Shown: piece by piece, positions 6,866-22,278 of the stretch
Layout: each line of letters begins with the position of its first letter
How positions within the stretch are numbered: position 1 is the first letter of the stretch
Assembly (NCBI GenBank): GCA_017454815.1
Contig: JAFTCG010000084.1
Location: forward strand, 1 to 50,848
DNA length: 50,848 nt
From: Clostridia bacterium
GTDB lineage: Bacteria > Bacillota > Clostridia > Oscillospirales > Acutalibacteraceae
Direction: 5' to 3'
Position numbers and translations under genes: made by a program
The notes under the pieces: model-generated
Seen by the model: only the letters and a program-made list of their open reading frames with translations
The model's database searches: none
Told to the model about the DNA's origin: nothing

Positions 6866-8394
6866 CAGGCGATACCTCCCGTTGCAGACACGATGTCATC
6901 TGCGGTTATCATCTCTAAATCCGAGTCGGAAATATTGTCAAGCGAAGCTATGCGGTCTGCCTGCGCATTGATAGCTTTTTCAAATATGTTTCTCGCAGTC
7001 CTTGCGTTTCCGAAATGCTCGTTTCTTTCCTCAAATAAATAATCAAACTGTTCTTTGAGCAGGGCAGTTGCTTCGTCATCGAGAGAATATCCGTTCTTTT
7101 GGCAGAACCGGTTGAATATGGAAAGAAGCTCGTCGCCCGAATAGTCGGGAAATTCAAAATACTTGCTGAAGCGTGAAGAAAGACCGGGGTTTGATTCGAT
7201 GAACTTGTGCATCAGTCCCGTGTATCCGGCGACGATAACAACAAGCTCGTCTCTGTGATCTTCCATCGCCTTGAGGATAGTTTCGATAGCTTCTTTTCCG
7301 TAGCTGTCATCCGTCTCTCCTGCAAGAGAATATGCTTCGTCAATAAAGAGGACTCCTCCCATTGCCTCCTGGATCACCTTTTGAGTTTTGATCGCAGTCT
7401 GTCCGAGATAACCTGCAACAAGTGCGCTTCTGTCGGTTTCAACAAGCTGCCCCTGAGGAAGAATTCCCATTTGATAATACAATTTTGCAACAAGACGTGC
7501 AACGGTCGTTTTGCCCGTGCCGGGGTTGCCGGTAAACACAAGATGGTATGAGATCGTCGGAACGTGCATACCACGTTTTTGGCGTATCTGAGAAACTTTT
7601 ATGAAATTCATAAGACTGTGAACGTCCTGCTTTACGCCTTCAAGACCGACAAGCCCGTCAAGTTCAGCAAGCAGATTTTCGAGCGTTTCGCTTTCGTTTT
7701 CACTTGGACGTGACACGCTCGGAGCTTCTGCCGATGGCTCTGCCTGAACGTCAGATACAGAAGAGACATTGCTCGTGTCAGCCGTCAGATGGACGGTTAT
7801 TGTTATCGGCTCGGGAGCCGGTTTATTCTCAGTTTTTTGGGTAACGCTATCTCTTGCCGCCTGCGTAAGAGCGTCGTTTTGAAGATAGCTGTCTTCCTTC
7901 TTCTCGGTAATCTTCAAGCTGTAGTCGGGCGAGCTGCCAACGTTCACACCTCCGCTCAACGCACGCCTTTGCAGAGCGCCGATGATCTGCGAAAGGCAGT
8001 TTGCCTCCTCAACGGTGAAGTCGCCGTTTATCGTCGCAGAAGCAAAAAGGATATCGTTGAGTTTTTCTATGAACGAGGAAGCCAGATCGCTTGAGTTTTC
8101 AGCGTCTTTTTTGACAAGTTTATCAAAGAAATCAGGAACTGCAAGCAGACGTTCTTCATCGCCGCAACAGCCCATTGCCGTCACGACCTGCTCGATCGTA
8201 TAATCTTTTCCCGAAATGCAGGAAAGAAGCGTTTTGTAATCCGGAGAGTAAAGATAATTGCTTCCCCAGATCTTGAGCGTTGCCGCAAGGTAATACAGCA
8301 TCAACGCCTCACCATGCTGCTCATCGGGCAGTGAAGCGTTCAGGAAGTCAACCATACCTTCGTATTCTGTTTTTATTTCCGTAAATTTATCCAC
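6865..8394 (-). CDS. CbxX/SpoVK-type AAA+ ATPase with N-terminal TerB-like domain
   Basis: ATPase of 509 residues. Residues 1-150 are helical and end in a TerB-like signature (ILFASATINGDFTVEEANCLSQI); residues about 155-240 are a Ser/Glu/Pro-rich linker. The AAA+ module starts at LDGLVGLEGVKQDV, with Walker A TGNPGTGKT (about 288-296), Walker B GVLFIDEAYSL and an arginine-finger region SRFSKYFEF, which is the CbxX/CfqX/SpoVK/EccA subfamily. Such proteins act as hexameric remodellers of partner proteins. The frame opens at GTG 8403, but GAGGTGA there fits as ribosome-binding site for the GTG at 8394. It is first of three coupled genes with the J-like and HIRAN proteins. Confidence 0.85.
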   Translation of the reverse strand: MDKFTEIKTEYEGMVDFLNASLPDEQHGEALMLYYLAATLKIWGSNYLYSPDYKTLLSCISGKDYTIEQVVTAMGCCGDEERLLAVPDFFDKLVKKDAENSSDLASSFIEKLNDILFASATINGDFTVEEANCLSQIIGALQRRALSGGVNVGSSPDYSLKITEKKEDSYLQNDALTQAARDSVTQKTENKPAPEPITITVHLTADTSNVSSVSDVQAEPSAEAPSVSRPSENESETLENLLAELDGLVGLEGVKQDVHSLMNFIKVSQIRQKRGMHVPTISYHLVFTGNPGTGKTTVARLVAKLYYQMGILPQGQLVETDRSALVAGYLGQTAIKTQKVIQEAMGGVLFIDEAYSLAGETDDSYGKEAIETILKAMEDHRDELVVIVAGYTGLMHKFIESNPGLSSRFSKYFEFPDYSGDELLSIFNRFCQKNGYSLDDEATALLKEQFDYLFEERNEHFGNARTARNIFEKAINAQADRIASLDNISDSDLEMITADDIVSATGGIA

Positions 8395-8420
8395 AAAAAT
8401 CACCTCACGGTATTTTGTAT

Positions 8421-8563
8421 TTATTTCTTTCTGACACTGTTGAGGTAATCACGCAATGCTTCTATGTCGTCACGATACAAAGTGACAGCCAGGAAGTTAT
8501 CTGTCAACCCATCGTCCCGGAAATACACACGCCATTCAACACTAACGTCAAGGTACTTTTGTG
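8421..8563 (-). pseudogene. possible coding remnant between YhgE and AAA+ genes
   Basis: The frame that reads through the end of the YhgE gene carries about 40 codons (VEWRVYFRDDGLTDNFLAVT ... ALRDYLNSVRKK, stop at 8421) with protein-like composition, yet no ATG or ribosome-binding site lies in this gap. It looks like the 3' end of a gene whose front was deleted when the YhgE gene came to lie next to the AAA+ gene. Alternatively it is a short gene starting from an internal GTG. I do not recognise the family. Confidence 0.35.
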
Positions 8564-10696
8564 TTAAAGAATTTCTGTTTCTTTCAGCTTTTTGCCGAAA
8601 AAGCTTATGGGTTTTCTGACCGCTTTTGAAATCACAAGTCCGAAAATAAGACCTATCGGGATATATGTGCTGAGTTTCAGCAAATCGATCATGTAATCGT
8701 TGCCCCACGTTCCGCAAACACATTCACGGAAGGCATTGACAAGGAATGTAAACGGAAGATACGGATGTATTGTCTGGAAAAATTTCGGGGTGACGTCTAT
8801 CGGGAAAGTTCCTCCCGAACCGCCTATCTGAAGCACGAGCAATATGACGGCGATGGCTTTTCCGATATCCTCAAATGCGTAGACGAGCGAATAGATGAAA
8901 ACTGTGAATATCATCGAAGCGCATATGCCTGCAAGCACGAACATTAAAGGATGATAGCATTGCATTTTTAGAACGAAAAGATCGCCAAGACAGATTATCA
9001 GCCCCTGAACGACGGAAAACGTCAAAAACGTCATTCCTCTGCCGAAGTATTCCTGAGTTTGAGTGTAACCGAGTGTCTTCCTGTGTCTGACTTTTGTCTT
9101 CATTATCGCAACAAGAATGACTGCGCCGACCCAAACGGCAAGCGTGGAATAAAACGGAGCCATTGCAGAGCCGTAGTTGTCGATAGCATATATTTTTTTA
9201 GTATTGATGATAACGGGACAGGCAGCAAATTCACCGAGTTTATCGGAGTTGTTGAAAGTGAGGTTATAGATCATATTCACAAGCTCACTGTCCGAAAGCT
9301 TGTTTATTTTTTTGTACAGGTCGTCAAGCTGTTTTTCACATCCGTCAAGCAGACTCATAAATGAGTTTATCATGTCTGCTCCCGAATCAACGGAATCGTC
9401 TATCGTTTTTATCAGCGTAGGTACGTCTTCATTTGTTCCTATCGCATCAATGATAGATGAGATATCGCTGAGTACGCCGACGAGGTAAGTCATATTGTTG
9501 TCGAGCGCAGGTTTGACGGTATCTTTGTATTGCTGTTTGACCTTTGTTACCGATCCGTCGATGTTCTTGAGCTCAGACGAAATCTGCCGCAAAGCATTTT
9601 TGCCTGCTTTTGAGTTTGTCGCCGAATCCAGTGTTGAAGAAATACTCTTCAGCGAATCATTGATACCGCTCAGGTCGTCCGCCAAAGACGACAAGGACGA
9701 AAGCTTTACCGGCAATGCACCGTTGATCTGATTCAGCGAAGAAAGAAGAACGTCATATTTACCGGTCTGCTGATCGATAACCTTTTTGAAGTTTTGAAGG
9801 GCAGCAGCCGCATCTCCGGAGGACAAGGAGTCGATCTTATCAATAGTCGCGATCAACTCGGTTGCTTCGGAATGGCTTTCGTCAAGCGCGCTGTCAAGCG
9901 ATGAAGTGATGGACGAAACCATATTTTTCGTTAGTGAAATCAGTTCGTTGGTGCTTTTTATTGTCCCATTGGTGTCGTCAAGCAGTTTTTTAACTCTTTC
10001 GTTGGAAAAAGTGCTCTCAATGTTTTTCGTAATCTTAATAATACTTGAAAACGCTTCGACAGTACTTCTGATAGACTTGACGCTTTCTTTGGCGGCATCG
10101 ATCTGATTGAGTATAGTGTTAACTGCACCGCCGTCCGGAGAATCATTTGCCTCTTCGATCACCGTTTTAAGAAGACTGTTGATAATGTCAATGATAGTAG
10201 TGATGAATGATTCGTTGACCTGAGTCTGAATTGTCTGCACGACTTTGTCAGTTATTTTTGTGGCGATAGCATTCTTCTTTTCGTTCGCGTAGTAGGTGAT
10301 TTCAGGACGCTTGAAATCGGAAGTAGTAATACTCGTAAGCGATTCGCTGAAAGTTGCAGGTATTTCGATGGCGGCGTAGTATTTGCCCGATTTTACGCCT
10401 TCAATGCCTTCATCTTTTGAAAGAAACTGCCAATCTATCAGGTCGTTTGCTTCAAGACTTTTCCTTACTTCTTCTCCAACATTGATTTCAATATTCTTGA
10501 AAGTATATCCCTCGTCTTCAATGATAACGGCGATCTGCATTTGCCCGGTGCTGCCGTAAGGATCATGGTTTGCGTAAATGTTAAACCAGGCGTAAAGCGA
10601 CGGCAAAACAAGTATTCCGACCGCAAGAATGATCGCCATTGAGTTTGTGAAGATTTTTTTGAGATCGTTTATGTAAATTTTCAGAACGTTTTTCAT
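8564..10696 (-). CDS. YhgE/Pip domain membrane protein
   Basis: Membrane protein of 710 residues. The N-terminus carries the family hallmark: a short basic cytoplasmic start, one helix (about 18-38, MAIILAVGILVLPSLYAWFN) and then YANHDPYGSTGQMQIAVI. Residues about 40-505 are extracytoplasmic and rich in helical, coiled-coil-like repeats; five or six membrane helices follow. The family includes Lactococcus Pip and Bacillus YueB, host receptors for some phages, and EsaA of type VII secretion. No EssC, Esx or other secretion genes are present, so the physiological role is open. Its start overlaps the upstream gene by four bases. Confidence 0.88.
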   Translation of the reverse strand: MKNVLKIYINDLKKIFTNSMAIILAVGILVLPSLYAWFNIYANHDPYGSTGQMQIAVIIEDEGYTFKNIEINVGEEVRKSLEANDLIDWQFLSKDEGIEGVKSGKYYAAIEIPATFSESLTSITTSDFKRPEITYYANEKKNAIATKITDKVVQTIQTQVNESFITTIIDIINSLLKTVIEEANDSPDGGAVNTILNQIDAAKESVKSIRSTVEAFSSIIKITKNIESTFSNERVKKLLDDTNGTIKSTNELISLTKNMVSSITSSLDSALDESHSEATELIATIDKIDSLSSGDAAAALQNFKKVIDQQTGKYDVLLSSLNQINGALPVKLSSLSSLADDLSGINDSLKSISSTLDSATNSKAGKNALRQISSELKNIDGSVTKVKQQYKDTVKPALDNNMTYLVGVLSDISSIIDAIGTNEDVPTLIKTIDDSVDSGADMINSFMSLLDGCEKQLDDLYKKINKLSDSELVNMIYNLTFNNSDKLGEFAACPVIINTKKIYAIDNYGSAMAPFYSTLAVWVGAVILVAIMKTKVRHRKTLGYTQTQEYFGRGMTFLTFSVVQGLIICLGDLFVLKMQCYHPLMFVLAGICASMIFTVFIYSLVYAFEDIGKAIAVILLVLQIGGSGGTFPIDVTPKFFQTIHPYLPFTFLVNAFRECVCGTWGNDYMIDLLKLSTYIPIGLIFGLVISKAVRKPISFFGKKLKETEIL

Positions 10697-11064
10697 TCCT
10701 CTTCATCCTCCTCGTCGTCATCATCTTCTTCAAATTCTTCATCGAAATCCAACTGTTCGTCATTGTTGAGATAAACGATCCATTTGTTTTTTAAGATATG
10801 AAGTTTATAGTCTATGATAATAAAGGTGAACACAAGTACAAAAATCAGAACTATCCATAACGTCAGCCAGAACGTGACTGCTCCCGTAGCTCTTGATAAA
10901 CAGGCAGCCAAAACTGTAAACAGTAAAAACACTATCGCCGTAACGATTTTTGCTTTTTTAACATTTTTCCCTAACGATTCACATTTCAAAGCTGCCGAAT
11001 CTCTTATTTTTAAAAATTTTTTTGCATAAATCTCATTGAGCGTATCTTTTTGCCCGTTACTCAT
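10693..11064 (-). CDS. small membrane protein with acidic C-terminal tail
   Basis: Protein of 123 residues with a charged N-terminal helix, two membrane helices (about 39-58 and 65-88) and a C-terminus of almost only Asp and Glu (from about 106). It does not match a family I know. It overlaps the YhgE/Pip gene by four bases (ATGA), so the two are translated together and likely act together at the membrane. The tail could bind cations or a basic partner; that is speculation. Confidence 0.7.
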   Translation of the reverse strand: MSNGQKDTLNEIYAKKFLKIRDSAALKCESLGKNVKKAKIVTAIVFLLFTVLAACLSRATGAVTFWLTLWIVLIFVLVFTFIIIDYKLHILKNKWIVYLNNDEQLDFDEEFEEDDDDEEDEEE

Positions 11065-11406
11065 AGAATCCCGCCTATTGTTAAATATTTCACTAACTAT
11101 TATTTACTCTCTGTTTTTTACTGAATTATTGCATAAATGTGAACATAGTGTTACAAATGTGTTTTTTCATAAAGCACACATGAGCTATTTCGCTATGGTT
11201 TCCGGTTGCTGTTTTATTTAATAGGGAATCGATTATTTCCTGTTAAATATAAAAGTATAACGCCCGCCGGCTTTGCTCTTCAGGTATCGGCGATGGCGGA
11301 ATCGAAAGCGTCATCCTGCATTGCAGGTGCTTTCTTGGTTCAAAGATGATGAACAACCCGCACGGATCTTTCCATGCGGGCATGTGTTGCTATGTTCTGA
11401 TGTTCA
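11065..11406. other. intergenic region with a dispersed repeat
   Basis: 342 bp without a gene. The A+T-rich first part (11065-11210) should hold the promoter of the leftward YhgE cluster, but I could not settle on -35 and -10 boxes. The rest is one copy of a dispersed repeat (11213-11336) and an imperfect hairpin near 11357-11385 (CCCGCACGG ... CCATGCGGG). Confidence 0.6.
11213..11336 (+). repeat. dispersed intergenic repeat, copy 1
   Basis: Two-part element. A hairpin (TTTATTTAATAGGGAAT ... ATTTCCTGTTAAATA) is followed by a G+C-richer block containing CGCCCGCCGGCT, CGGCGATGGCGG, ATCGAAAGCGT and ATCCTGC. The same modules in the same order, on the other strand, make up 12931-13069. No ORF is involved. 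It could be a MITE-like or BOX-like element. Confidence 0.7.
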
Positions 11407-11766
11407 TTATATGATGATTATGCTTTCTATCACTTCATCTGTGACGTCCTGCAACTTTTCGGAATCATTCCATAAATCATTAAACAGATCAAGATAATGC
11501 CTTGAAAATTGGATCTCCTCCGTCTTCTGAATATAGTTATACACATTGTTACCACGTTCACAGCCCAAGTCAACCGTAGTAAATCCATTAAGCGGCATAT
11601 AACTAATCACATCAAAAGTAATAAACCCGACCATGTTTTCATTTGTGACATTAGATTTGAATTTAACTTTTTCTTTGATCCATGCAGCACATTCACGAGC
11701 AATCGCCTTTTGAGTTAACTCATTGCGAAGTTTCATTGAATTTGGGATATTTGTTGTCAACAGCAT
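11407..11766 (-). pseudogene. fragment of a PLD-type DEAD/DEAH helicase
   Basis: From about 11715 downward the frame encodes IARECAAWIKEKVKF, then MPLNGFTTVDLGCERGNNV and DLFNDLWNDSEKLQDVTDEV. This block occurs in large bacterial helicases that pair a phospholipase-D-like domain with a SNF2-type motor, just ahead of the motor. Here it stops after roughly 100 residues with neither Walker A nor PLD motif, so it is a remnant. The first ~15 codons of the frame overlap the Cas12a remnant in another register and are probably not native to it. It could not work as a helicase. Confidence 0.6.
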
Positions 11767-12115
11767 AGTTCATTGTGATGGGGACGTGGAAAGAAAATGA
11801 CGGTTTGGAATAACGCCTGTCCTTTACAATATCATGCTTTGCGCATTTGAAAGTCAACATCGGATATTTATTTTTCAAATCTTCGACGCTCATACCGTTG
11901 TCTGTCGAATATTTGTCCAAGCATTCCGAGATAAACATTTTATGGCATTTATCAAATACTTCTTTGACAACTTTATATTTTTCTGCTTTCTTCTGATCTT
12001 CGGTAATAATATTGAATTTTTCAAGATTATCTGCTGTTTCAAATTCAGGAATCAAGCTGAACTGTATTGTCTTGGATTGCGAAAAGCAATGTTTGTAACT
12101 TTCAAAAATACTCAT
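11720..12115 (-). pseudogene. cas12a: Cas12a (Cpf1) remnant with large internal deletion
   Basis: The 131-residue frame is two separated parts of a Cas12a effector. Residues 1-~68 match its N-terminus: MSIFESYKHCFSQSKTIQFS, LIPEFETADNLEKFNI, then EKYKVVKEVFDKCHKMFI. Residues ~96-125 match the segment just before the RuvC-I aspartate: HDIVKDRRYSKPSFSFHVPI, then TMNYAVDNKYPKF, close to HEIIKDRRFTSDKFFFHVPI in Acidaminococcus Cas12a. More than 700 residues (REC, PI and most of WED) are missing between, and the frame stops before the GIDRGERN active site. Cas1, Cas2, Cas4 and an array are absent. Non-functional as a nuclease; A+T-rich relative to neighbours. Confidence 0.8.
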
Positions 12116-12231
12116 ACTTTTTCTCCCTTTTGATTTTGATAATAAAATGATAACACATAAATAGAGGCATTACAACATAAAAAGAGATATTTCTTGCGCT
12201 CAGTACGATTATTGGTACATTAAATAAAAAA

Positions 12232-12260
12232 GTATAAATCTCCTTGTTTTACAGATACTA
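12232..12260 (+). promoter_or_regulatory. candidate sigma-G-type promoter of spoVT
   Basis: GTATA (12232-12236) and GATACTA (12254-12260), 17 bases apart, fit the forespore sigma-G pattern GHATR / CATWMTA at all but one or two positions, and are at a sensible distance from the ATG at 12294. SpoVT of Bacillus subtilis is under sigma-G. A sigma-A alternative (TATAAA at 12233) has no good -35. Confidence 0.45.
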
Positions 12261-12289
12261 ACAGTGCAAATATGTAAAGCAAGGAGATT
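12237..12289 (+). other. inverted repeat that includes the spoVT ribosome-binding site
   Basis: AATCTCCTTG (12237-12246) is perfectly complementary to CAAGGAGATT (12280-12289), which is the spoVT ribosome-binding site; the loop is 33 bases. If transcription starts upstream of 12237 the site would be masked in the mRNA; if it starts near 12267 the pairing cannot form. Confidence 0.5.
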
Positions 12290-12293
12290 ATTT

Positions 12294-12833
12294 ATGAAAG
12301 CAACAGGAATTGTCAGGAGGATCGACGATCTCGGCAGAGTCGTCATCCCTAAAGAAATCAGAAGAACAATGCGCATCCGCGAGGGTGACCCGCTGGAGAT
12401 ATATACTGCGAGCGACGGGGAGGTTATTTTTAAAAAATATTCGCCGATCGGCGAGGTTTTTGACATCGCGAAGCAATATGCCGAAGTCCTCAACAGGAGC
12501 ACTAACCTGCCCGTTCTCATCTTCGACCGCGACCACGTTATCTCATGCTCGGGGCTTCCGAAAAAGGAGGTCGTTGACAGGCGCGTCAGCCCGGAGCTTG
12601 AGGACATCATGGAGGACAGGACGAATTTCATCGCCCAATCTTCAAAAGATGCTTTGTACCCCGCTGAGGGCGTCGACCGACTTGCATCTGTCGCCTGCCC
12701 GATCATAGGCAGCGGAGACGTTTCCGGGGCCGTAGTGCTGCTCGCGCCCGAGGACGGGACTTTGCCGACGCAGACGGAAATAAAGCTCACCCAAGTCGCC
12801 GCATCATTCCTCGGAAAGCAGATGGAAAACTGA
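12294..12833 (+). CDS. spoVT: stage V sporulation protein T (AbrB-type regulator)
   Basis: Forespore transcription regulator of 179 residues. The first ~50 residues are the SpoVT-AbrB swapped-hairpin DNA-binding domain (MKATGIVRRIDDLGRVVIPK). Residues about 58-178 form the GAF-like domain that distinguishes SpoVT from AbrB (FDIAKQYAEVLNRSTNLPVL ... CPIIGSGDVSGAVVLL). The frame extends 10 codons further up, but AAGGAG seven bases before 12294 and the conserved MKATGIVRR start decide the ATG. SpoVT tunes sigma-G genes late in spore formation, so its presence argues for a spore-former. It stands alone between two dispersed repeats. Confidence 0.93.
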   Translation: MKATGIVRRIDDLGRVVIPKEIRRTMRIREGDPLEIYTASDGEVIFKKYSPIGEVFDIAKQYAEVLNRSTNLPVLIFDRDHVISCSGLPKKEVVDRRVSPELEDIMEDRTNFIAQSSKDALYPAEGVDRLASVACPIIGSGDVSGAVVLLAPEDGTLPTQTEIKLTQVAASFLGKQMEN

Positions 12834-12837
12834 CTCA

Positions 12838-12875
12838 ATGCCGCAGGTTTCACGGAAAACTTGCGGTATTTTTTT
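12838..12875 (+). terminator. spoVT terminator
   Basis: TGCCGCAGGTTT (12839-12850) pairs with AAACTTGCGGTA (12857-12868) through one G-U pair, followed by a run of seven T. It starts six bases after the spoVT stop. Confidence 0.85.
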
Positions 12876-12896
12876 CAGCCTTCATCACATATTCTG

Positions 12897-12926
12897 TTGA
12901 CAACTGCAATGCCGCAATAGTATAAT
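12897..12926 (+). promoter_or_regulatory. promoter of the PAP2 gene
   Basis: TTGACA (12897-12902), an 18-base spacer and TATAAT (12921-12926): both boxes are perfect sigma-A consensus. Transcription from here runs through the second dispersed repeat, giving the PAP2 mRNA a structured leader of about 160 bases. Confidence 0.8.
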
Positions 12927-12930
12927 TGTA

Positions 12931-13069
12931 AAAAAGCGCCTGCGCGCAGCGTCTGCGACGCAGGATCACGCTTTCGATCCCGCCATCGCCGTTGCCCGAA
13001 GGGCATAGTCGGCGGGTGTTAAAAATCTTTTTATTTAATCAGGAAACGAGAAGTTTCCTGTTAAATAAA
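12931..13069 (-). repeat. dispersed intergenic repeat, copy 2
   Basis: Reverse complement of the element at 11213-11336 by module order. The hairpin TTTATTTAATCAGGAAAC (13030-13047) / GTTTCCTGTTAAATAAA (13053-13069) is at one end. The block with ACCCGCCGACTATGCCC, CGGCGATGGCGGGATCG, AAAGCGT and ATCCTGC lies toward 12950. The G+C-rich block can fold into nested stems. The copies are inverted and about 1.6 kb apart. Confidence 0.7.
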
Positions 13070-13093
13070 AAAAGAAAGGTCGTGTATACATAT

Positions 13094-13717
13094 ATGTTCC
13101 TTCTCGGCATTGACTGGTCGATATTTGAAAACTTTGACCGTGCGATTTTTGAATTTGCGGAAAAAATGAAATGCGGTTTTCTCGACGTTATTCTCGGCAC
13201 TTTTTCATGGCTCGGAGATTTCGCGATCCCATGGTTTGTTCTTGCGATCATCCTGATGTTTTTCAAGAAAACAAGAAAAATCGGTTTTCTTGTTGCGCTC
13301 GCGGTCGGGATCTCCTCTCTGCTCAACGAGGTCATTCTCAAGCATATCTTCCTTCGGGTAAGGCCGTTCAACTACGAATGGACAAACGGTTTTGTTTTCA
13401 ACGACGAGCTCTACAGGCCGTCATTTTTAAAAACCCCCGGAACTCTGTCGTTCCCGTCCGGCCATACGGGCGCGTGCGTTGCTCCGACGTTTGTGCTGTG
13501 GTATTTCAAAAAATACAAGCTGGCGATCCCTGCAACCATTGTCGCTTTGCTGACCGGTTTCAGCAGGATCTACGTCCACGACCACTACCCGACGGACGTC
13601 CTTTGCGGGATCGTCACGGGACTTATTGCGGGAATAATCTGCGTTCTGCTCGGAAACCTGATTTTCGACAGGATCGTACCGTACTTCAAAAACAAAAAGC
13701 AGGATAAATCTTCCTGA
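13094..13717 (+). CDS. PAP2 superfamily membrane phosphatase
   Basis: Integral membrane phosphatase of 207 residues with five to six helices. All three PAP2 signatures are present: K-x6-RP (K83, R90, P91), PSGH (121-124) and SR-x5-H-x3-D (S157, R158, H164, D168). This family dephosphorylates lipid phosphates such as undecaprenyl diphosphate or phosphatidate on the outer face of the membrane; the exact substrate is not readable. The frame opens at 12992 inside the repeat, but conserved sequence begins at MFLLGIDWSIFENFD, so ATG 13094 is the likely start, with AAAGG somewhat far upstream. A GTG at 13082 is the alternative. Confidence 0.87.
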   Translation: MFLLGIDWSIFENFDRAIFEFAEKMKCGFLDVILGTFSWLGDFAIPWFVLAIILMFFKKTRKIGFLVALAVGISSLLNEVILKHIFLRVRPFNYEWTNGFVFNDELYRPSFLKTPGTLSFPSGHTGACVAPTFVLWYFKKYKLAIPATIVALLTGFSRIYVHDHYPTDVLCGIVTGLIAGIICVLLGNLIFDRIVPYFKNKKQDKSS

Positions 13718-13724
13718 CAAAAGC

Positions 13725-13755
13725 AAAAGCAGGGTCTGATCAGCCCTGCTTTTTT
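13725..13755. terminator. bidirectional terminator between PAP2 and asparaginase genes
   Basis: AAAAGCAGGG pairs with CCCTGCTTTTTT around a palindromic CTGATCAG loop. T-runs exist on both strands, serving the convergent genes; the left side overlaps the last bases of the asparaginase gene. Confidence 0.85.
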
Positions 13756-14720
13756 CCGACCTCACGAGGTGTCGTTGTGTTGACTTCGAGCAGAGCGTAA
13801 GCGTACGCTCTTTCGATCGAACAATCGTACAAAACCTCGACGTGATCCTTGCTCAGTATTCTTTCAAGAGAAGAATAGATCTTTCCGCTGCATTTTTTCA
13901 GCGGGGCTATGAAAACCCTGACGCCGCTTTTTTCGCATTTGTCGATGAAATCCAGAATCGAAGCGTCCTCTCCCTCAACGCAGGCGGTAGAAGAATGGTA
14001 AAGATAATGCATAACTGCGGCGTATTTTGACAGATCAAAAGCGGAGTAATCAAGCCCGGGGTACGGCTTTATGAGCAATACTTTATTTTTCAGCATCAGG
14101 TCGACGTTCTCCGGATCAAAGCCGAAGACCTCTCCCCTGCTTTCGGCTGTAAAGCTTTCGCCTTCGATTTTCCCGAAGGCTTTGCCGTTATACGGCGAAA
14201 ACCGGTCGAAGTAATTATCCGCTTCGCAGATATTCGTCGCAGAAAAAACCGTGTTATCTTCTTTTTCGTTCGACCACGAAACAAACACGCCCGTTTCACC
14301 CGAAAAGCTGATGAAGTCAACGGCATTTTTGAAATTGACTGATCCGTTTCCGCTTTCGTCCGAAAGCTCCTTGTTGCCGGCGACGAAAACTATCGGAAGC
14401 TCAGCCTTTGAAAACAGCATCCCCGCAATGTTGGAAGTGTAGGACAATGTGTCGGATCCGTGCGTAACGATGATTCCCGAAATGTCTTTCCTGTCCTTAT
14501 TTTCTTCAATAGCTTTCAGGATAACGCCGAGTTTGTCAAGGCTCATGTTTTCGCTGAGCGTCATCAGCGGCATAACGGTCTCAAAAGATACTTCTTCGCC
14601 GAAAAATCTGTTGTAGAATTCGAGCGGCCTCAAGGCGTGATTTTCTCCGGTGTCGAGAACTCCGCCTGTGCTTTTGCTTCCGATCGTGCCGCCGGTCAGG
14701 ATTGCAAGTATTTTTTTCAT
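13740..14720 (-). CDS. ansA: L-asparaginase, type I-like
   Basis: Amidohydrolase of 326 residues that converts L-asparagine to aspartate and ammonia. TGGTIGS (9-15) carries the first catalytic threonine, and VTHGSDTLSYT (85-95) carries the second threonine with the Asp of the catalytic set. No signal peptide is visible, so it is cytoplasmic. VFVAGNKELSDESGNG is the usual loop after the second strand. It is transcribed alone, convergent with the PAP2 gene. A few asparaginase-like proteins act on other amides (for example Glu-tRNA amidotransferase GatD), but GatD's extra domain is missing. Confidence 0.9.
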   Translation of the reverse strand: MKKILAILTGGTIGSKSTGGVLDTGENHALRPLEFYNRFFGEEVSFETVMPLMTLSENMSLDKLGVILKAIEENKDRKDISGIIVTHGSDTLSYTSNIAGMLFSKAELPIVFVAGNKELSDESGNGSVNFKNAVDFISFSGETGVFVSWSNEKEDNTVFSATNICEADNYFDRFSPYNGKAFGKIEGESFTAESRGEVFGFDPENVDLMLKNKVLLIKPYPGLDYSAFDLSKYAAVMHYLYHSSTACVEGEDASILDFIDKCEKSGVRVFIAPLKKCSGKIYSSLERILSKDHVEVLYDCSIERAYAYALLEVNTTTPREVGKKQG

Positions 14721-14813
14721 GTTCCCCCTCCGTTCCTTAACTCATCTGTTCCGACAAAATTATAATCAAAAACAAAAATATATTCAAGTGGCAATTTTCC
14801 GCATTGCAAAAGG

Positions 14814-14842
14814 TTGATTTCTGCACAAAAATATGATAAAAT
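14814..14842 (+). promoter_or_regulatory. promoter of the sugar-acid / lar operon
   Basis: TTGATT (14814-14819), 17 bases, TAAAAT (14837-14842), about 75 bp before the first gene. No clear nickel- or sugar-regulator palindrome is seen. Confidence 0.6.
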
Positions 14843-14916
14843 TAGCAAGTTATATCAGACCTTATAGATCAAAGGCGATCTTCCCGCAAAAAGCGGCGTG
14901 TAAAGGAGTGTAAGTT

Positions 14917-15975
14917 ATGAAAAAATATGCAATCGCCACTGTAACCAGCATGGGGCTGAGGATCACCCCGCAGGATCGGATGGCTGTACAAAACAGCAAC
15001 CTGTTTTACCTGCAGGCGACCTCGGCGGAGAGCAACGTCCTCAACGTATCGTCCAGCCTCGGAAAAGAATGCCTTGTCATGACGAGATTCGTCGAAGGCT
15101 CGCCGATGGCGGACTTCATCAAGCGTCAGCTTCGGGCGCGCAACATCCGCTTTGAAGGCAAAGACGTTGAACAGGGCGGCCCCTGGGGTTACCGCCATCA
15201 GTTCAATATCGCCGATTCCGGATTCGGCCTCAGAGCTCCGAGAGTGTGGAACGACCGTGCAGGCGAAGTCGGCAGAACTCTGTCGGCGGACGATTTCGAC
15301 CTTGACCGAATTTTCGGTCAGGAGGGCGTCAGCATTCTTCACCTTTCCGGGCTTATCGCATCCATGAGCGAGGACACGACAAAGTGCTGCCTCGAGGTTG
15401 CGAAAGCCGCAAAAAAATACGGCACGCTCGTCAGCTTCGACCTGAACTACCGCGCCACTTTCTGGAAAGGCCGCGAGGAAGAGCTTAGCAAAGCTTTCCA
15501 CGAGATCGCCTCTGTCGCAGATATCCTCGTCGGCAACGAGGAAGATTTCCAGCTCTGTCTCGGATTCAAGGGCCCCGAATCGGGCGGTAAAGATCTTACG
15601 TCCAAGATCGAACGTTTCAAGACTATGATCGATCAGGTCAGGGAAAAATATCCTCAGGCAAAAGCGTATGCCACCACGCTCAGGCAGGTCATCTCCGCCA
15701 ATGAGCATCTCTGGGGCGCGATCCTCTGGGCGGACGGTAACTGGTACGTTGAAGAGCCCAGACCGATACAGGTCATGGACAGAATCGGCGGCGGCGACGG
15801 ATTTTCCGGAGGCCTGCTTTACGGCATCCTCAACGACTGGACTGCGGACAAATGGCTTCAGTTCGGCTGGGCGTCCGGCGTGCTGGCGGCGAGCAGTCTC
15901 AACGACTACGCCGAACCGGCGGACGAAAAACAGGTATGGGACATCTACAAGGGCAACGCCCGCGTACAAAGATAA
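14917..15975 (+). CDS. kdgK: PfkB-family sugar kinase, 2-keto-3-deoxygluconate kinase-like
   Basis: Ribokinase-fold kinase of 352 residues. The N-terminal half matches the KDG-kinase pattern (GLRITPQDRMAVQNSNLFYL, then an Ala/Ser-rich SAESNVLNVSSSLGK), LVSFDLNYRATFW is the middle signature, and RIGGGDGFSGGLLYGIL is the PfkB motif with the catalytic aspartate (GGGD instead of the common GAGD). KDG kinase makes KDPG in hexuronate and aldonate breakdown. AAGGAG precedes the ATG. It is first in an operon with gnd, a HAD phosphatase and the LarA system, 17 bp before gnd, so a sugar-acid substrate fits the context. No KDPG aldolase is in the window. Confidence 0.82.
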   Translation: MKKYAIATVTSMGLRITPQDRMAVQNSNLFYLQATSAESNVLNVSSSLGKECLVMTRFVEGSPMADFIKRQLRARNIRFEGKDVEQGGPWGYRHQFNIADSGFGLRAPRVWNDRAGEVGRTLSADDFDLDRIFGQEGVSILHLSGLIASMSEDTTKCCLEVAKAAKKYGTLVSFDLNYRATFWKGREEELSKAFHEIASVADILVGNEEDFQLCLGFKGPESGGKDLTSKIERFKTMIDQVREKYPQAKAYATTLRQVISANEHLWGAILWADGNWYVEEPRPIQVMDRIGGGDGFSGGLLYGILNDWTADKWLQFGWASGVLAASSLNDYAEPADEKQVWDIYKGNARVQR

Positions 15976-17444: not shown

Positions 17445-18270
17445 CGTAAGGCTTATCGCTTTAGACCTCGACGGCACTCTGCTGGGCTCCGACAAACAAC
17501 TGTCGGCGGAAAACAGGTCTGCGCTTGAGCGTGCGGCGGGATCGGGAATTGAAATAGTTCCCGCCACCGGACGGTTTTACCGCGGTATGCCGCAGGTGAT
17601 CCGCGAGCTTCCTTTTGTCAACTACGTTATTTCGATCAACGGCGCACAGGTTTTTGACGTCGCAAACCAAAAGACCGTATGCAGCTGCGATATACCGCTG
17701 GAGCTCGCGCTTTCGGTCATGGAGCGGCTGGACGAGCTGCCGGTGATCTACGACTGTTTCCAGGGCGGCTGGGGCTGGATGACTAAGGAGCTTTATGATC
17801 AGGCAGAGTTGTTTGCCGCAAACGTCCACAGCCTTGAAATGATACGAAATCTGCGAACGCCCGTTCCCGATTTGAAGGAATGTTTGAAAGAACGGTCGTC
17901 GGACGTGCAAAAGATTCAGGCGTTCTTTCGGGACATGGAGCTTCGCGATAAGATGCTCAAAGAGTTTCCCAAAGAGTTCCCGGACCTCATCGTGACGAGC
18001 GCGATCGTCAACAACGTTGAGTTCAACAGCCGTGGAGCCGAAAAAGGCACTGCTCTCAAAAATCTTGCCGTCTATCTCGGCATCCCGATCGGGCAGACTA
18101 TGTCGTTCGGGGACGACCTCAACGATATTTCCATGCTGAAGACTTCCGGGATCGGCGTTGCCATGGGAAACGCGGACGACGAGGTCAAAAAAGCGGCGGA
18201 CTATGTCACCGACAGCTGTGACAATAACGGCGTCGCAAAAGCGATAAAACGTTTCATATTGGAGAATTGA
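17437..18270 (+). CDS. Cof-type HAD-IIB phosphatase
   Basis: Haloacid-dehalogenase superfamily phosphatase of 277 residues. LIALDLDGTLL (motif I, nucleophile Asp in DLDGT), a motif II Thr/Ser region near VPATGR, a C2-type cap, and MSFGDDLNDISML (motif IV, GDDxND) place it in the Cof/YbiV group, which hydrolyses sugar phosphates or related compounds. The start ATG overlaps the end of gnd by eight bases; the frame's earlier Met lies inside gnd. Its position between gnd and the LarA homologue suggests it dephosphorylates a sugar-acid phosphate in the same pathway. That is inference. Confidence 0.9.
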   Translation: MHNVRLIALDLDGTLLGSDKQLSAENRSALERAAGSGIEIVPATGRFYRGMPQVIRELPFVNYVISINGAQVFDVANQKTVCSCDIPLELALSVMERLDELPVIYDCFQGGWGWMTKELYDQAELFAANVHSLEMIRNLRTPVPDLKECLKERSSDVQKIQAFFRDMELRDKMLKEFPKEFPDLIVTSAIVNNVEFNSRGAEKGTALKNLAVYLGIPIGQTMSFGDDLNDISMLKTSGIGVAMGNADDEVKKAADYVTDSCDNNGVAKAIKRFILEN

Positions 18271-18272
18271 TT

Positions 18273-19553
18273 ATGAAAGATATATATTTGACCGCATCAT
18301 CCGAAACGGGGCTGACGCAGGAAGAAATCAGGTCGGCTCTCATTGCCTCGCTGGAAGGCAGGGAGCTGAAAAAAGCCCTCATCCTACCGCCCGATTTCAC
18401 CCGTTTCCATTCCGGCGCAGGATACATCACAAACGTGTATTACCACGCGCTGGCGGACAGAGGCGTACAGGTCGACATACTCCCCGCCCTTGGCACGCAC
18501 GTTCCGATGACCGGGGCCCAGTGGGAAGCGATGTTCGGCGACGTTCCGTTCGATAGGATGCTCGTCCACAACTGGCGCACGGACGTGGTAAAACTCGGCG
18601 AGATCCCTGCAAGCTTTATCAGAGACATCACTGAAGGCCTTTGGAACGAATCGGTTTCCGCCGAAGTCAACAGGCTCGTCATGGACGAAAGCTATGACCT
18701 CATCATCTCCCCCGGCCAGGTCGTGCCGCACGAAGTGATCGGTATGGCAAACCACGCCAAAAACCTCTTTGTCGGCGTGGGCGGCAGCGAGATGATCAAC
18801 AGATCGCACATGATCGGCGCAGTCTACGGAATGGAGCGCATGATGGGCAAGGATCACACTCCCGTTCGCAGGATGTTCGATTACGGCATGGAACACTTTT
18901 TGAACGAACGTCCGATAATGTTCGTGCTGACGGTCACGACCGCTCCCGGCGGAAGAATACAGACTCACGGCCTTTTCATCGGAGAGGGCAGAGAATGCCT
19001 TTCGCAGGCGGTAAAGCTTGCCCAGCAGAAGAACATCGACTTTGTCGAACACGGGCTTAAAAAATGCGTGGTCTACCTTGACCCCGAGGAATTCCAGAGC
19101 ACGTGGCTTGGCAACAAGGCGGTTTACCGCACAAGGATGGCTATGGCGGACGGCGGCGAGCTGATAATTCTCGCTCCCGGCGTGGAACGCTTCGGCGAGG
19201 ACGACAAGGTTGACCGGCTCATCCGGAAATACGGCTACAAAGGCCGTCTTAACACGCTTGAAGAATTTAAAAAGCCCGAAAACGAGGACCTGCGCGAAAA
19301 CATGGGCGCGGCGGCGCACCTTATCCACGGCTCATCCGACGGCAGGTTTTCGATCACATACGCAGTAAAGAAAATCACGAAAGAAGAGATCGCATCGGTC
19401 GGTTTCCTTGCGGCGGACTACGACGAAACGGTGAAAAAATACGACCCGGAAAAACTTCAATACGGATACAATGAAGTTGACGGCGAGGAGATCTACTTTA
19501 TCCCTAACCCCGCGCTGGGGCTTTGGATAAACCGCGAGAAATTTGAAGAATAA
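18273..19553 (+). CDS. larA: LarA-family nickel-pincer racemase/epimerase
   Basis: Protein of 426 residues with the LarA catalytic frame. DFTR (41-44), GTH (H76), PH (H153), K163 and H179 keep the spacing of Lactiplantibacillus LarA R75-H108-H174-K184-H200 almost exactly: H153-K163 is 10 apart and K163-H179 is 16, as in LarA. K282 in LGNKA matches the second conserved lysine. K163 would carry the pincer nucleotide; the usual SGGRK around it is ANHAK here, marking a divergent branch. The family isomerises 2-hydroxy acids and includes lactate and malate racemases and gluconate 2-epimerase. With gnd and kdgK upstream, a sugar acid is my preferred substrate. Start set by GGAG at 18261. Confidence 0.85.
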   Translation: MKDIYLTASSETGLTQEEIRSALIASLEGRELKKALILPPDFTRFHSGAGYITNVYYHALADRGVQVDILPALGTHVPMTGAQWEAMFGDVPFDRMLVHNWRTDVVKLGEIPASFIRDITEGLWNESVSAEVNRLVMDESYDLIISPGQVVPHEVIGMANHAKNLFVGVGGSEMINRSHMIGAVYGMERMMGKDHTPVRRMFDYGMEHFLNERPIMFVLTVTTAPGGRIQTHGLFIGEGRECLSQAVKLAQQKNIDFVEHGLKKCVVYLDPEEFQSTWLGNKAVYRTRMAMADGGELIILAPGVERFGEDDKVDRLIRKYGYKGRLNTLEEFKKPENEDLRENMGAAAHLIHGSSDGRFSITYAVKKITKEEIASVGFLAADYDETVKKYDPEKLQYGYNEVDGEEIYFIPNPALGLWINREKFEE

Positions 19554-19603
19554 AATAATATTGTTTTGGACAGAAACGGCGTTTGGTTACAACGGTGAAT
19601 GTA

Positions 19604-20356
19604 ATGGATCATATCGCTTTTTTTCAACAACATGACGAAGTTGCAGTGGCGTTCTCCGGCGGAGTGGATTCCTCCGTTTTGCTGGCGCTTGCAAAAAGAT
19701 ATGCAAAGCGAGTCAAGGCATACTACGTCAAAACACAATTTCAGCCGCAGTTCGAGCTTGACGACGCGCTCGAGGTTGCAAAGCTTCTGGACGTCGAGAT
19801 CCGGATAATACAGCTTGACGTTACGGCGGATCCGGTGATTGCGGGCAATCCCGAAAACAGATGCTATTTTTGCAAGAAAAAGATTTTTTCAGCCATCATC
19901 CGATGTGCGAAAGCCGACGGATTTGAAGCCGTGCTTGACGGGACAAACGCCTCCGACGACATCGCCGACAGACCCGGCTTTGCCGCACTTTCGGAGCTCG
20001 GAGTCCTGTCTCCGCTGAGGATGTGCAATTTGTCAAAGCATAGAATCAGACAAATTGCGAAGGAAAACGACCTCCCCGTCGCAAGCAAGCCTTCTTACGC
20101 CTGCCTTGCGACAAGGATCCCCTATGGCGTGAGGATCACGGATGAGATTTTGAAGAAAACGGAAGTTGCCGAAGACCTGCTTCGTAAGGCAGGATACAGT
20201 AACTTCAGAGTCCGTTACCTCAACGGCTCTGCGAAGCTTGAACTCGGGAAAGTCGAGCTTGAGTTGTTTCGCCGCCGTGAAGAAGAAACGATCGAACTTT
20301 TGTCGCCGTTTTACGAAGCAGTTTTTCTTGATCCAAAGGAGAGAGCTGATGAATAA
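19604..20356 (+). CDS. larE: LarE, sulfur transferase for nickel-pincer cofactor
   Basis: ATP-dependent sulfur-insertion enzyme of 250 residues. SGGVDSS near the N-terminus is the PP-loop that adenylates the pyridinium dicarboxylate precursor. In the form starting at TTG 19583 the cysteines are C94 and C97 (NRCYFCKK) and C174 (KPSYACLATRIPYG). The last corresponds to the sacrificial Cys of Lactiplantibacillus LarE; the added CxxC is the arrangement of LarE proteins that use an iron-sulfur cluster and recycle. I choose the ATG at 19604 over the TTG because family N-termini begin just before the PP-loop. It overlaps larB by eight bases. Confidence 0.92.
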   Translation: MDHIAFFQQHDEVAVAFSGGVDSSVLLALAKRYAKRVKAYYVKTQFQPQFELDDALEVAKLLDVEIRIIQLDVTADPVIAGNPENRCYFCKKKIFSAIIRCAKADGFEAVLDGTNASDDIADRPGFAALSELGVLSPLRMCNLSKHRIRQIAKENDLPVASKPSYACLATRIPYGVRITDEILKKTEVAEDLLRKAGYSNFRVRYLNGSAKLELGKVELELFRRREEETIELLSPFYEAVFLDPKERADE

Positions 20357-21095
20357 AACCGAACTGACAGCGCTTTTGAAGAAAGTGGAAAGCGGAGATA
20401 TTTCCGCAAAAGAAGCCGCAGAAAGGATCAGACTTGATTCATACGACGACCTGGGCTATGCAAAGATCGACGTTCAGCGCGGTATTCGTCAGGGGGCGAA
20501 CGAAGTTGTCCTGGGCGAGAGCAAAACGAAAGAGCAGATCTGCGGTATAGTGAAGCATATCCTCTCCTCCTCAAGCGACAGCGTCCTGATAACTCGCTTG
20601 TCCGACGAAGCGGCGGAGTTTTTAAAAAACGAAATTGAGCTGTTTTACGACAGCGTTTCAAAGATCGGCATTGCCGGAAAAAGAAACACAGCCTGCGGCA
20701 AGGGCTGTATCGTCGTTGCAACGGGAGGCACAAGCGACATCCCCGTCGCAGAGGAGGCGGCGCTGACCGCCGAATACTACGGCAACAGAGTCGAAAGACT
20801 TTATGACGTCGGCGTTGCAGGGCTCCAAAGGCTGCTCGACAACGTGGATGTGCTCGCCGGTGCAAAAGCGGTCGTCGCCGTTGCGGGCATGGAGGGCGCG
20901 CTCGCGAGCGTGATAGGCGGACTCGTTGATTGCCCCGTTGTTGCCGTTCCGACGAGCGTCGGCTACGGCTCGAGCTTCGAGGGAATTGCGGCACTGCTTT
21001 CGATGCTCAACTCCTGCGCCGCCGGAGTCAGCGTTGTAAATATCGACAACGGCTTCGGGGCGGGATATATTGCCAACATGATCAACAACAGATAG
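20349..21095 (+). CDS. larB: LarB, carboxylase/hydrolase of the nickel-pincer pathway
   Basis: Protein of 248 residues that carboxylates nicotinic acid adenine dinucleotide and releases AMP, giving the dicarboxylated mononucleotide used by LarE. The C-terminal half is PurE-like: VVATGGTSDIPVAEEAALTA, YDVGVAGLQRLL and VVAVAGMEGALASVIGGLVD are characteristic. The N-terminus (LLKKVESGDISAKEAAERIR) is the usual helical lead. AAAGGAGAG eight bases before ATG 20349 sets the start, inside the end of larE; larC follows seven bases after its stop. Confidence 0.95.
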   Translation: MNKTELTALLKKVESGDISAKEAAERIRLDSYDDLGYAKIDVQRGIRQGANEVVLGESKTKEQICGIVKHILSSSSDSVLITRLSDEAAEFLKNEIELFYDSVSKIGIAGKRNTACGKGCIVVATGGTSDIPVAEEAALTAEYYGNRVERLYDVGVAGLQRLLDNVDVLAGAKAVVAVAGMEGALASVIGGLVDCPVVAVPTSVGYGSSFEGIAALLSMLNSCAAGVSVVNIDNGFGAGYIANMINNR

Positions 21096-21102
21096 GTGAA
21101 CT

Positions 21103-22278
21103 ATGAATATCTATTTTGAATGCAATATGGGTGCGGCGGGCGATATGATAGCTTCGGCGCTTGTCGATCTTTTTGAAGACAGGGAATCAATCGTCGCCGA
21201 GCTCAATTCGCTCAACCTTCCCAAAACCGAAATCGTCCTGAACGAGAAGATGCAAAACGGCATCAGCGCAGTTCATCTTGACGTTCTGGCGAACGACATG
21301 CAGGAGACTCCCGACAACGTTGACGAACACGCTCACCATCATCACCATCATCACGGCAGAGGTCTCAGCGATATATTCGGGATAATCGACTCCCTGAACG
21401 CTGATGAAAAAGTAAAAACAGACGTTAAAAACATTTACAAAATCGTCGCAGACGCGGAAGCAAAAGCGCATTCGGCGGCTGTCGGCGAGATACATTTTCA
21501 CGAGCTCGGGATGCTCGACGCAATAGCGGACATCACTGCAAGCGCGTTTCTGCTCAAAAAGCTCGGCGTGGAAAAGGTCACGGCTTCCCCGATAAACGTC
21601 GGCAACGGCAGCGTCAGATGCGCTCACGGCTTGCTGCCCGTCCCGGCTCCGGCAACGGCGAACATTCTCCTTGATGTTCCCTACTACAAAAGCGACGTCG
21701 ACACGGAGCTATGTACCCCGACGGGTGCGGCGATATTGAAATATTACGCGAACAAATTTTTGCCCGAGCCGCTCCTGACTTCCGTAAAAAAAGTGGGCGT
21801 TGGAGCAGGCACCAAGGAGCTCGACAGAGCCAATATCATCAGAGCTTTTTTGTATGAGGACAGCAGCATCACGGAGCTTTCCTGCAACGTCGACGACATC
21901 ACGGGCGAGGAGATCGCCTTTGCGGTTGAAAAAATGATGAGCGAAGGGGCTCTCGACTGTTTCGTCACGCCCGTCGTCATGAAAAAGGGCAGACCCGCGT
22001 TCATGCTCACTGTTCTTTGCAAAAACAGCGAAGCCGATAAATTTGCCTCGTTGATTTTTAAACATACGACCACGATCGGTTTAAGAAAATACACTCCGAG
22101 CCGTTACACCCTGAAACGTGAGTTTGTCGAAGAAAACGGTGTGGCAGTAAAAAGATCCGAGGGCTTTTGCACTTCAAGGGAAAAAATCGAATTTGAAGAT
22201 ATAAAAGCTCTTGCCGTTGAAAAAGACATCTCCGTCTTCGAAGCGCGCAAAGAGCTTGAGGACAAATCCCAAATCTGA
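21103..22278 (+). CDS. larC: LarC, nickel insertase
   Basis: CTP-dependent cyclometallase of 391 residues that inserts nickel into the pincer nucleotide. FECNMGAAGDMIASALVDL is the N-terminal signature and KAHSAAVGEIHFHELGMLDAIADI the central one; the C-terminal LarC2 part includes VDDITGEEIAFAVEKMM and MKKGRPAFMLTVL. Residues about 76-83 are His-rich (HAHHHHHHH), a probable nickel-binding or storage loop. In some lactobacilli larC is split and needs ribosomal frameshifting; here it is one uninterrupted frame. Last biosynthetic gene of the lar set. Confidence 0.95.
   Translation: MNIYFECNMGAAGDMIASALVDLFEDRESIVAELNSLNLPKTEIVLNEKMQNGISAVHLDVLANDMQETPDNVDEHAHHHHHHHGRGLSDIFGIIDSLNADEKVKTDVKNIYKIVADAEAKAHSAAVGEIHFHELGMLDAIADITASAFLLKKLGVEKVTASPINVGNGSVRCAHGLLPVPAPATANILLDVPYYKSDVDTELCTPTGAAILKYYANKFLPEPLLTSVKKVGVGAGTKELDRANIIRAFLYEDSSITELSCNVDDITGEEIAFAVEKMMSEGALDCFVTPVVMKKGRPAFMLTVLCKNSEADKFASLIFKHTTTIGLRKYTPSRYTLKREFVEENGVAVKRSEGFCTSREKIEFEDIKALAVEKDISVFEARKELEDKSQI

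Follow-up and report, generated by a model that had tools for sequence, protein, structure and literature searches.

Next to spoVT, the window (the whole stretch of 50,848 nucleotides that was analysed) carries what is very probably a pseudogene relic of fairly recent age, which serial deletions of two defence genes have left behind. Based on sequence comparison, the site comprises three shards of these genes in a single orientation: two pieces of the CRISPR effector Cas12a, which abut in frame, and a piece of an HKD/SNF2 helicase in another reading frame. Despite its unusual look it is most likely an ordinary kind of thing, the relic of a lost CRISPR effector. The features are, by position in the window:

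11903..12115, minus strand: N-terminal shard of Cas12a, residues 1-71, including a start codon of its own; TIGR04330 positions 2-70
11732..11905, minus strand: Cas12a pre-RuvC shard, residues 71-128; TIGR04330 positions 845-887
11720..12115, minus strand: 131-codon frame, composed of the two Cas12a shards and of last codons and a stop supplied by the second join
11413..11736, minus strand: shard of an HKD/SNF2 helicase of 1080 aa (about residues 89-200), whose reading frame differs from that of the Cas12a shards
12116..12175, minus strand: start signals possibly retained from cas12a, namely a promoter (TTGTAA-17-TATCAT with TG) and a ribosome-binding site (AGGGAG, ahead of the ATG)
12222..12310, plus strand: native spoVT leader, 89% identical over 92 nt to genome G006, with hairpin arms at 12237-12256 and 12270-12289 (inverted repeat I3)

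A short frame built from two segments of Cas12a

According to the list of open reading frames, 11720-12115 on the minus strand is an open frame of 131 aa with an ATG start. Its product is matched in two stretches by TIGR04330, the NCBIfam model of Cas12a/Cpf1 (E 2.1e-19), by the PADLOC Cas12a models (from E 2e-27), and by solved Cas12a structures (PDB chains, from E 5.6e-17). Pfam gave three matches to the product, the best with an E of 0.022 and none close to its cut-off. The TIGR04330 score of 68.8 bits is far below the cut-off of 300, which is expected because most of the Cas12a protein is absent. When aligned to AsCas12a, residues 1-71 of the product correspond to residues 1-71, and residues 83-128 to residues 845-890. 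The N-terminal shard presumably comprises the first strand of WED and the beginning of REC1, and the strands of the pre-RuvC shard, which includes HDIVKDRRYS and FHVPITMNY, presumably also belong to WED. By homology in TIGR04330, PDB, and PADLOC the product is a Cas12a, and both halves can be assigned to this family well above chance. It is not near-full-length, which would mean about 1200-1300 aa with RuvC and Nuc, since it has only 131 aa and its likeness stops before the first RuvC motif.

Among the intact Cas12a proteins found, the nearest is a 1234-aa frame of G152, a genome of the same family. There, cas12a is followed by frames whose sequences read as cas4, cas1, and cas2, and then by seven V-A repeat matches. 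The G152 protein aligns to residues 2-72 of the fragment at 49% identity (71 aa) and to residues 71-129 at 56% identity (59 aa), in the same order and on the same strand. In this pairwise alignment the two pieces abut with zero linker residues. MAFFT with full-length Cas12a proteins misplaced residues 71-90 of the fragment, and the pairwise alignment was used instead. Computed from the alignment coordinates, the internal loss is a single gap of 2085 bases or 695 codons in frame compared to G152, and about 760 codons compared to AsCas12a. With this internal loss and the subsequent truncation at the helicase shard, the frame is a truncated and internally deleted copy of a gene that is intact elsewhere, as expected of a pseudogene. 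The sequence-only reading had already described a Cas12a fossil whose N-terminus is joined in frame to the segment preceding RuvC, and had named a homology search with the 131-residue product as its check. The three libraries and the intact relative agree with this description, including the in-frame loss between the halves. What it overlooked is the extent of the relic, because the helicase shard directly downstream belongs to it as well.

A third shard from an HKD/SNF2 helicase

The neighbouring frame at 11407-11766 on the minus strand overlaps the 131-codon frame in another reading frame, and the starts of the two are 349 bases apart. From its residue 11 onward it shares 63% identity, over 113 aa, with a 1080-aa helicase of genome G031. 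The shard is cut at both ends. By itself it has no PADLOC, Pfam, or NCBIfam family match, and the own genome contains no further match to the helicase stretch. The intact G031 protein is matched by PADLOC HKD+Snf2 (C3a139) at 1.3e-124 and by Pfam helicase domains. It is encoded in a run (L028, 568-7219) of the HKD/SNF2 helicase, a DUF4391 protein, a frame of 259 aa that PADLOC does not match, and a type III methyltransferase, and judging from these genes the run could plausibly be a type III-like restriction system. A tblastn search with the frames of at least 80 aa from loci L028-L032, which include the G152 frames read as cas4, cas1, and cas2, against 10600-12400 as the only target recovered the Cas12a and the helicase pieces, the latter also via antisense frames. 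Three further matches with E 0.011-0.021, all from L030 frames, were taken as chance.

The likeness to Cas12a stops at about 11732 and that to the helicase begins at about 11736. At this second join the window reads AATGAAACTTCGCAATGAG, and G031 has AGTGAAACTCCGCAATGAA at the equivalent place; a few bases may be common to both parents. Such joins could also result from a metagenome assembly that misjoined pieces from a strain mixture. The genome is in 96 contigs and 79.7% complete, and its origin from a metagenome is probable, but an error would have to affect two or more precise joins together, at a distance of 170 bases. In addition, the shards are merely about 175-325 bases long and all have one orientation within a contig of 50.8 kb, and we regard an assembly chimera as improbable.

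CRISPR components in the assembly

In the own assembly of 1.706 Mb, whose 79.7% completeness limits each of the following absences, the TIGR04330 search revealed no other Cas12a match and PF01867 no Cas1. The latter model was positive in nine of 14 named genomes that served as control. There are also no exact matches of the V-A repeat pattern AATTTCTACTN{2,6}GTAGAT, which is present in the fetched loci of four of the five Cas12a-bearing genomes of the family (G187, G408, G152, and G304, but not G366). The earlier statement that array and cas1 are lacking therefore holds for the assembly, and parts absent from it could sit in the unassembled fifth.

Surroundings and start signals

To the left of the relic, an ABC-2-type membrane protein and a small frame are located at 8564-11064, and to the right spoVT starts at 12294 on the plus strand. 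The spoVT leader is the nearest conserved host sequence on that flank. Its hairpin (12237-12289) is partly kept in G001 (85% over 33 nt), and G006 contains a partial second copy of the first arm 1.6 kb upstream. GC content is 30-36% around the Cas12a pieces, equally low in the stretch to the left, and below most of 8000-15000. Further away, at 18267-22278, a lactate racemase N-terminal domain, a PP-loop protein, and nickel insertion proteins are encoded close together, which we take to resemble a lar cluster.

The stretch 12116..12175 and the region upstream of the G152 cas12a have TGTGTTATC-TT in common. Promoter-like sites are frequent in this region, 10 compared to 5.3 (sd 2.5) in shuffled sequences, so that the signals are only a weak indication that the relic may retain the promoter and ribosome-binding site of cas12a.

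Two types of repeats were considered as boundaries of an inserted element. A dispersed repeat of about 140 bases, which has a palindromic end, occurs in inverted copies at 11212-11331 and 12948-13070, and this pair flanks the relic together with spoVT. The repeat has 15 matches on nine contigs of the own genome, some of which are the two strands of one place. Because it is dispersed and its arms enclose spoVT too, it was not taken as boundary, and an element delimited by the inverted copies was rejected. The direct repeat D6 (11243-11260 and 12220-12237) was rejected as a target duplication since it is A/T-rich and has one side in the dispersed repeat and the other at the edge of the native spoVT leader.

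Cas12a in relatives

Cas12a is rare in the family, with scores above the TIGR04330 cut-off in only five of 398 genomes. This search gave two extra rows, the relic itself and G182, which scored weakly with 18.4 bits. The relic illustrates that a family match alone can make a genome appear Cas12a-bearing, and caution is needed. The Cas12a of G304 is cut by a contig end. That of G366 (L030, frame from 6592) has an internal TAG stop, and its fetched stretch, which extends to the contig end, does not contain a V-A repeat match. It is possibly another decaying copy.

The fragment has no match in any of the genus's six other genomes; in the 398-genome Cas12a search five of them are listed without match, and the sixth is absent from the matches. 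The gene spoVT is nearly whole in G001 and G006 and found as two pieces on two contigs in G002, and G003, G004, and G005 have only short AbrB-type matches. The spot upstream of spoVT can thus be compared in three of the six genomes. In G001 and G006 it is occupied by a PHO4 phosphate transporter, a DUF47 gene, and other frames, and the stretches fetched from G001, G002, and G006 do not contain Cas12a and match the fragment no better than chance. It had been supposed that relatives carry an intact V-A locus at the same spot, for which a comparison of the spoVT-upstream regions was proposed. This is not supported, because the three comparable regions hold no Cas12a.

A second copy of the join was not seen in 60 relatives, 394 genomes of the order, and 391 genomes of the class, which are overlapping samples. 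In all other matched genomes (five of the 394 and one of the 391) the matches lie within one frame of 1225-1279 aa. A two-row alignment scan of genome contigs gave at least nine Cas12a loci, none of which is joined among the matches listed. In the nine loci listed the two segments are invariably 2.1-2.5 kb apart, with a weak second match in L053 (E 0.007). The same scan of viral contigs found no Cas12a locus, and pattern scans with the fragment's own peptides found no relative in genome or viral contigs, so that two scans of the viral contigs were negative for the fragment. Among 118 relatives of G152 only G152 itself and G429 matched, a plasmid collection gave no match, and a literature search contained no work on natural Cas12a fragments among the matches listed. 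The ancestral gene order is thus unobserved, since none of the searches revealed an intact parent locus.

Constraint and age of the relic

Positions common to at least 90% of the other Cas12a proteins were regarded as nearly invariant, based on 16 comparison proteins. The N-terminal shard breaks five of 19 such positions (Y11F, L17I, R18Q, G25F, and Y57C), compared to zero to three of 19-22 in the 16 comparison proteins. Y11F and L17I each also occur in one of these. Position 18, presumably a crRNA contact of Cas12a, is an arginine in all 16 and a glutamine in the fragment. The pre-RuvC shard breaks only two of 11 positions, both in the same way as G152, which itself breaks seven of 16 in this segment. 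Because its departures coincide with those of G152, we see no relaxed constraint in the pre-RuvC shard, and the substitutions in the N-terminal segment may be read as a modest sign of it there only.

The shards have neither stops nor frameshifts. In a neutral simulation that allowed nothing but substitutions, the two parts both stayed open in 34% of the runs at 5% divergence, in 12% at 10%, and in 3.5% at 15%. Therefore, either the loss happened fairly recently or the frame has been kept. The latter would be expected for a domesticated small protein, whose joined Cas12a pieces bind Cas12a-type crRNA or partners and are retained by selection, for example in the role of an inhibitor that mimics Cas12a. 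Such a protein would be in agreement with the open frame and with start signals that may be intact. At the positions of AsCas12a K860 and F864, counted on the alignment, the fragment has K and Y, and we assume these residues to serve crRNA processing. However, there is no second copy in the relatives, the order and class samples, or the genome and viral contig scans, and the assembly does not provide Cas12a, Cas1, or a V-A repeat as a target. In addition, a helicase scrap adjoins the frame, the invariant R18 with its presumed crRNA contact is replaced by Q, and the surroundings are not phage. Cas-derived inhibitors as such are known: AcrIB3 is described to mimic Cas5 and AcrIB4 to resemble the C-terminal domain of Cas8b (PMC13131331). 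Altogether we consider a domesticated protein unlikely. If it were functional, this natural two-segment Cas12a derivative would point the way to Cas12a regulators of a new kind.

An even more specific idea, to which we give very little credence, is that the 131 residues are made as a mini-WED peptide, which would bind V-A crRNA handles and block incoming or neighbouring Cas12a systems, or act as a decoy for AcrVA2. The latter is reported to recognise Leu-Ser-Lys-Thr (LSKT) of nascent Cas12a (PMC13131331). The fragment has Gln-Ser-Lys-Thr (QSKT) at this position.

A model for the origin of the relic

The preferred reading remains a relic left by serial deletions. In the ancestor, a type V-A cas12a and the HKD/SNF2 helicase of a type III-like restriction system would have been neighbours, located beside spoVT and on the opposite strand. 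At least three deletions would then have taken most of both genes. One inside cas12a would have removed about 695 codons and retained the frame by chance (one in three). A further, out-of-frame deletion would have begun in the pre-RuvC segment of cas12a and ended near helicase codon 89, and another one would have removed the remainder of the helicase. The outcome would be a 131-codon frame unable to act as Cas12a or as nuclease. The product lacks most of REC and the whole of PI, RuvC, and Nuc and therefore cannot work as Cas12a, and it presumably has no function at all.

This reading is favoured because the halves abut without a linker, while the segments are 2.1-2.5 kb apart in the listed Cas12a loci. 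We presume that deletion, and not the capture of fragments, made the composite. The reading is also favoured because the helicase shard lacks both ends of the protein and is in another frame, because the assembly contains no other Cas12a, Cas1, or V-A repeat and no second copy of the join was found, and because five of the 19 nearly invariant N-terminal positions are broken, which hints at relaxed constraint. It is weakened by shards that are still open, by start signals that may be intact, by Y11F and L17I, which each recur in one comparison protein, by the pre-RuvC shard with its lack of relaxed constraint, and by the failure to find an intact parent locus. The relic would be an example of a CRISPR effector and a restriction helicase that were eroded by blocks and not by point changes, with a readable frame left behind.

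Comparison with known systems

AcrIB3 and AcrIB4 (PMC13131331) share with the fragment that they are proteins resembling a Cas protein or part of one. They differ in targeting type I-B and in resembling one Cas protein or domain, whereas the frame in the window joins two distant segments. The HKD/SNF2 helicase system of G031 is similar in that the downstream frame of the window is 63% identical to its helicase over 113 aa, but the window keeps only about residues 89-200 of 1080. Compared to the type V-A locus of G152, the own assembly has neither cas1 nor a V-A repeat, and compared to its Cas12a the relic has lost about 695 codons internally and the entire part beyond the pre-RuvC segment. The two remaining segments are nevertheless 49% and 56% identical to G152, with equal order and strand. 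The isolated cas loci of Zhang and Ye 2017 (PMC5294841), which according to the authors may be remnants, comprise at least three cas genes, and the window has two shards of one gene. Common to both is cas material without an array.
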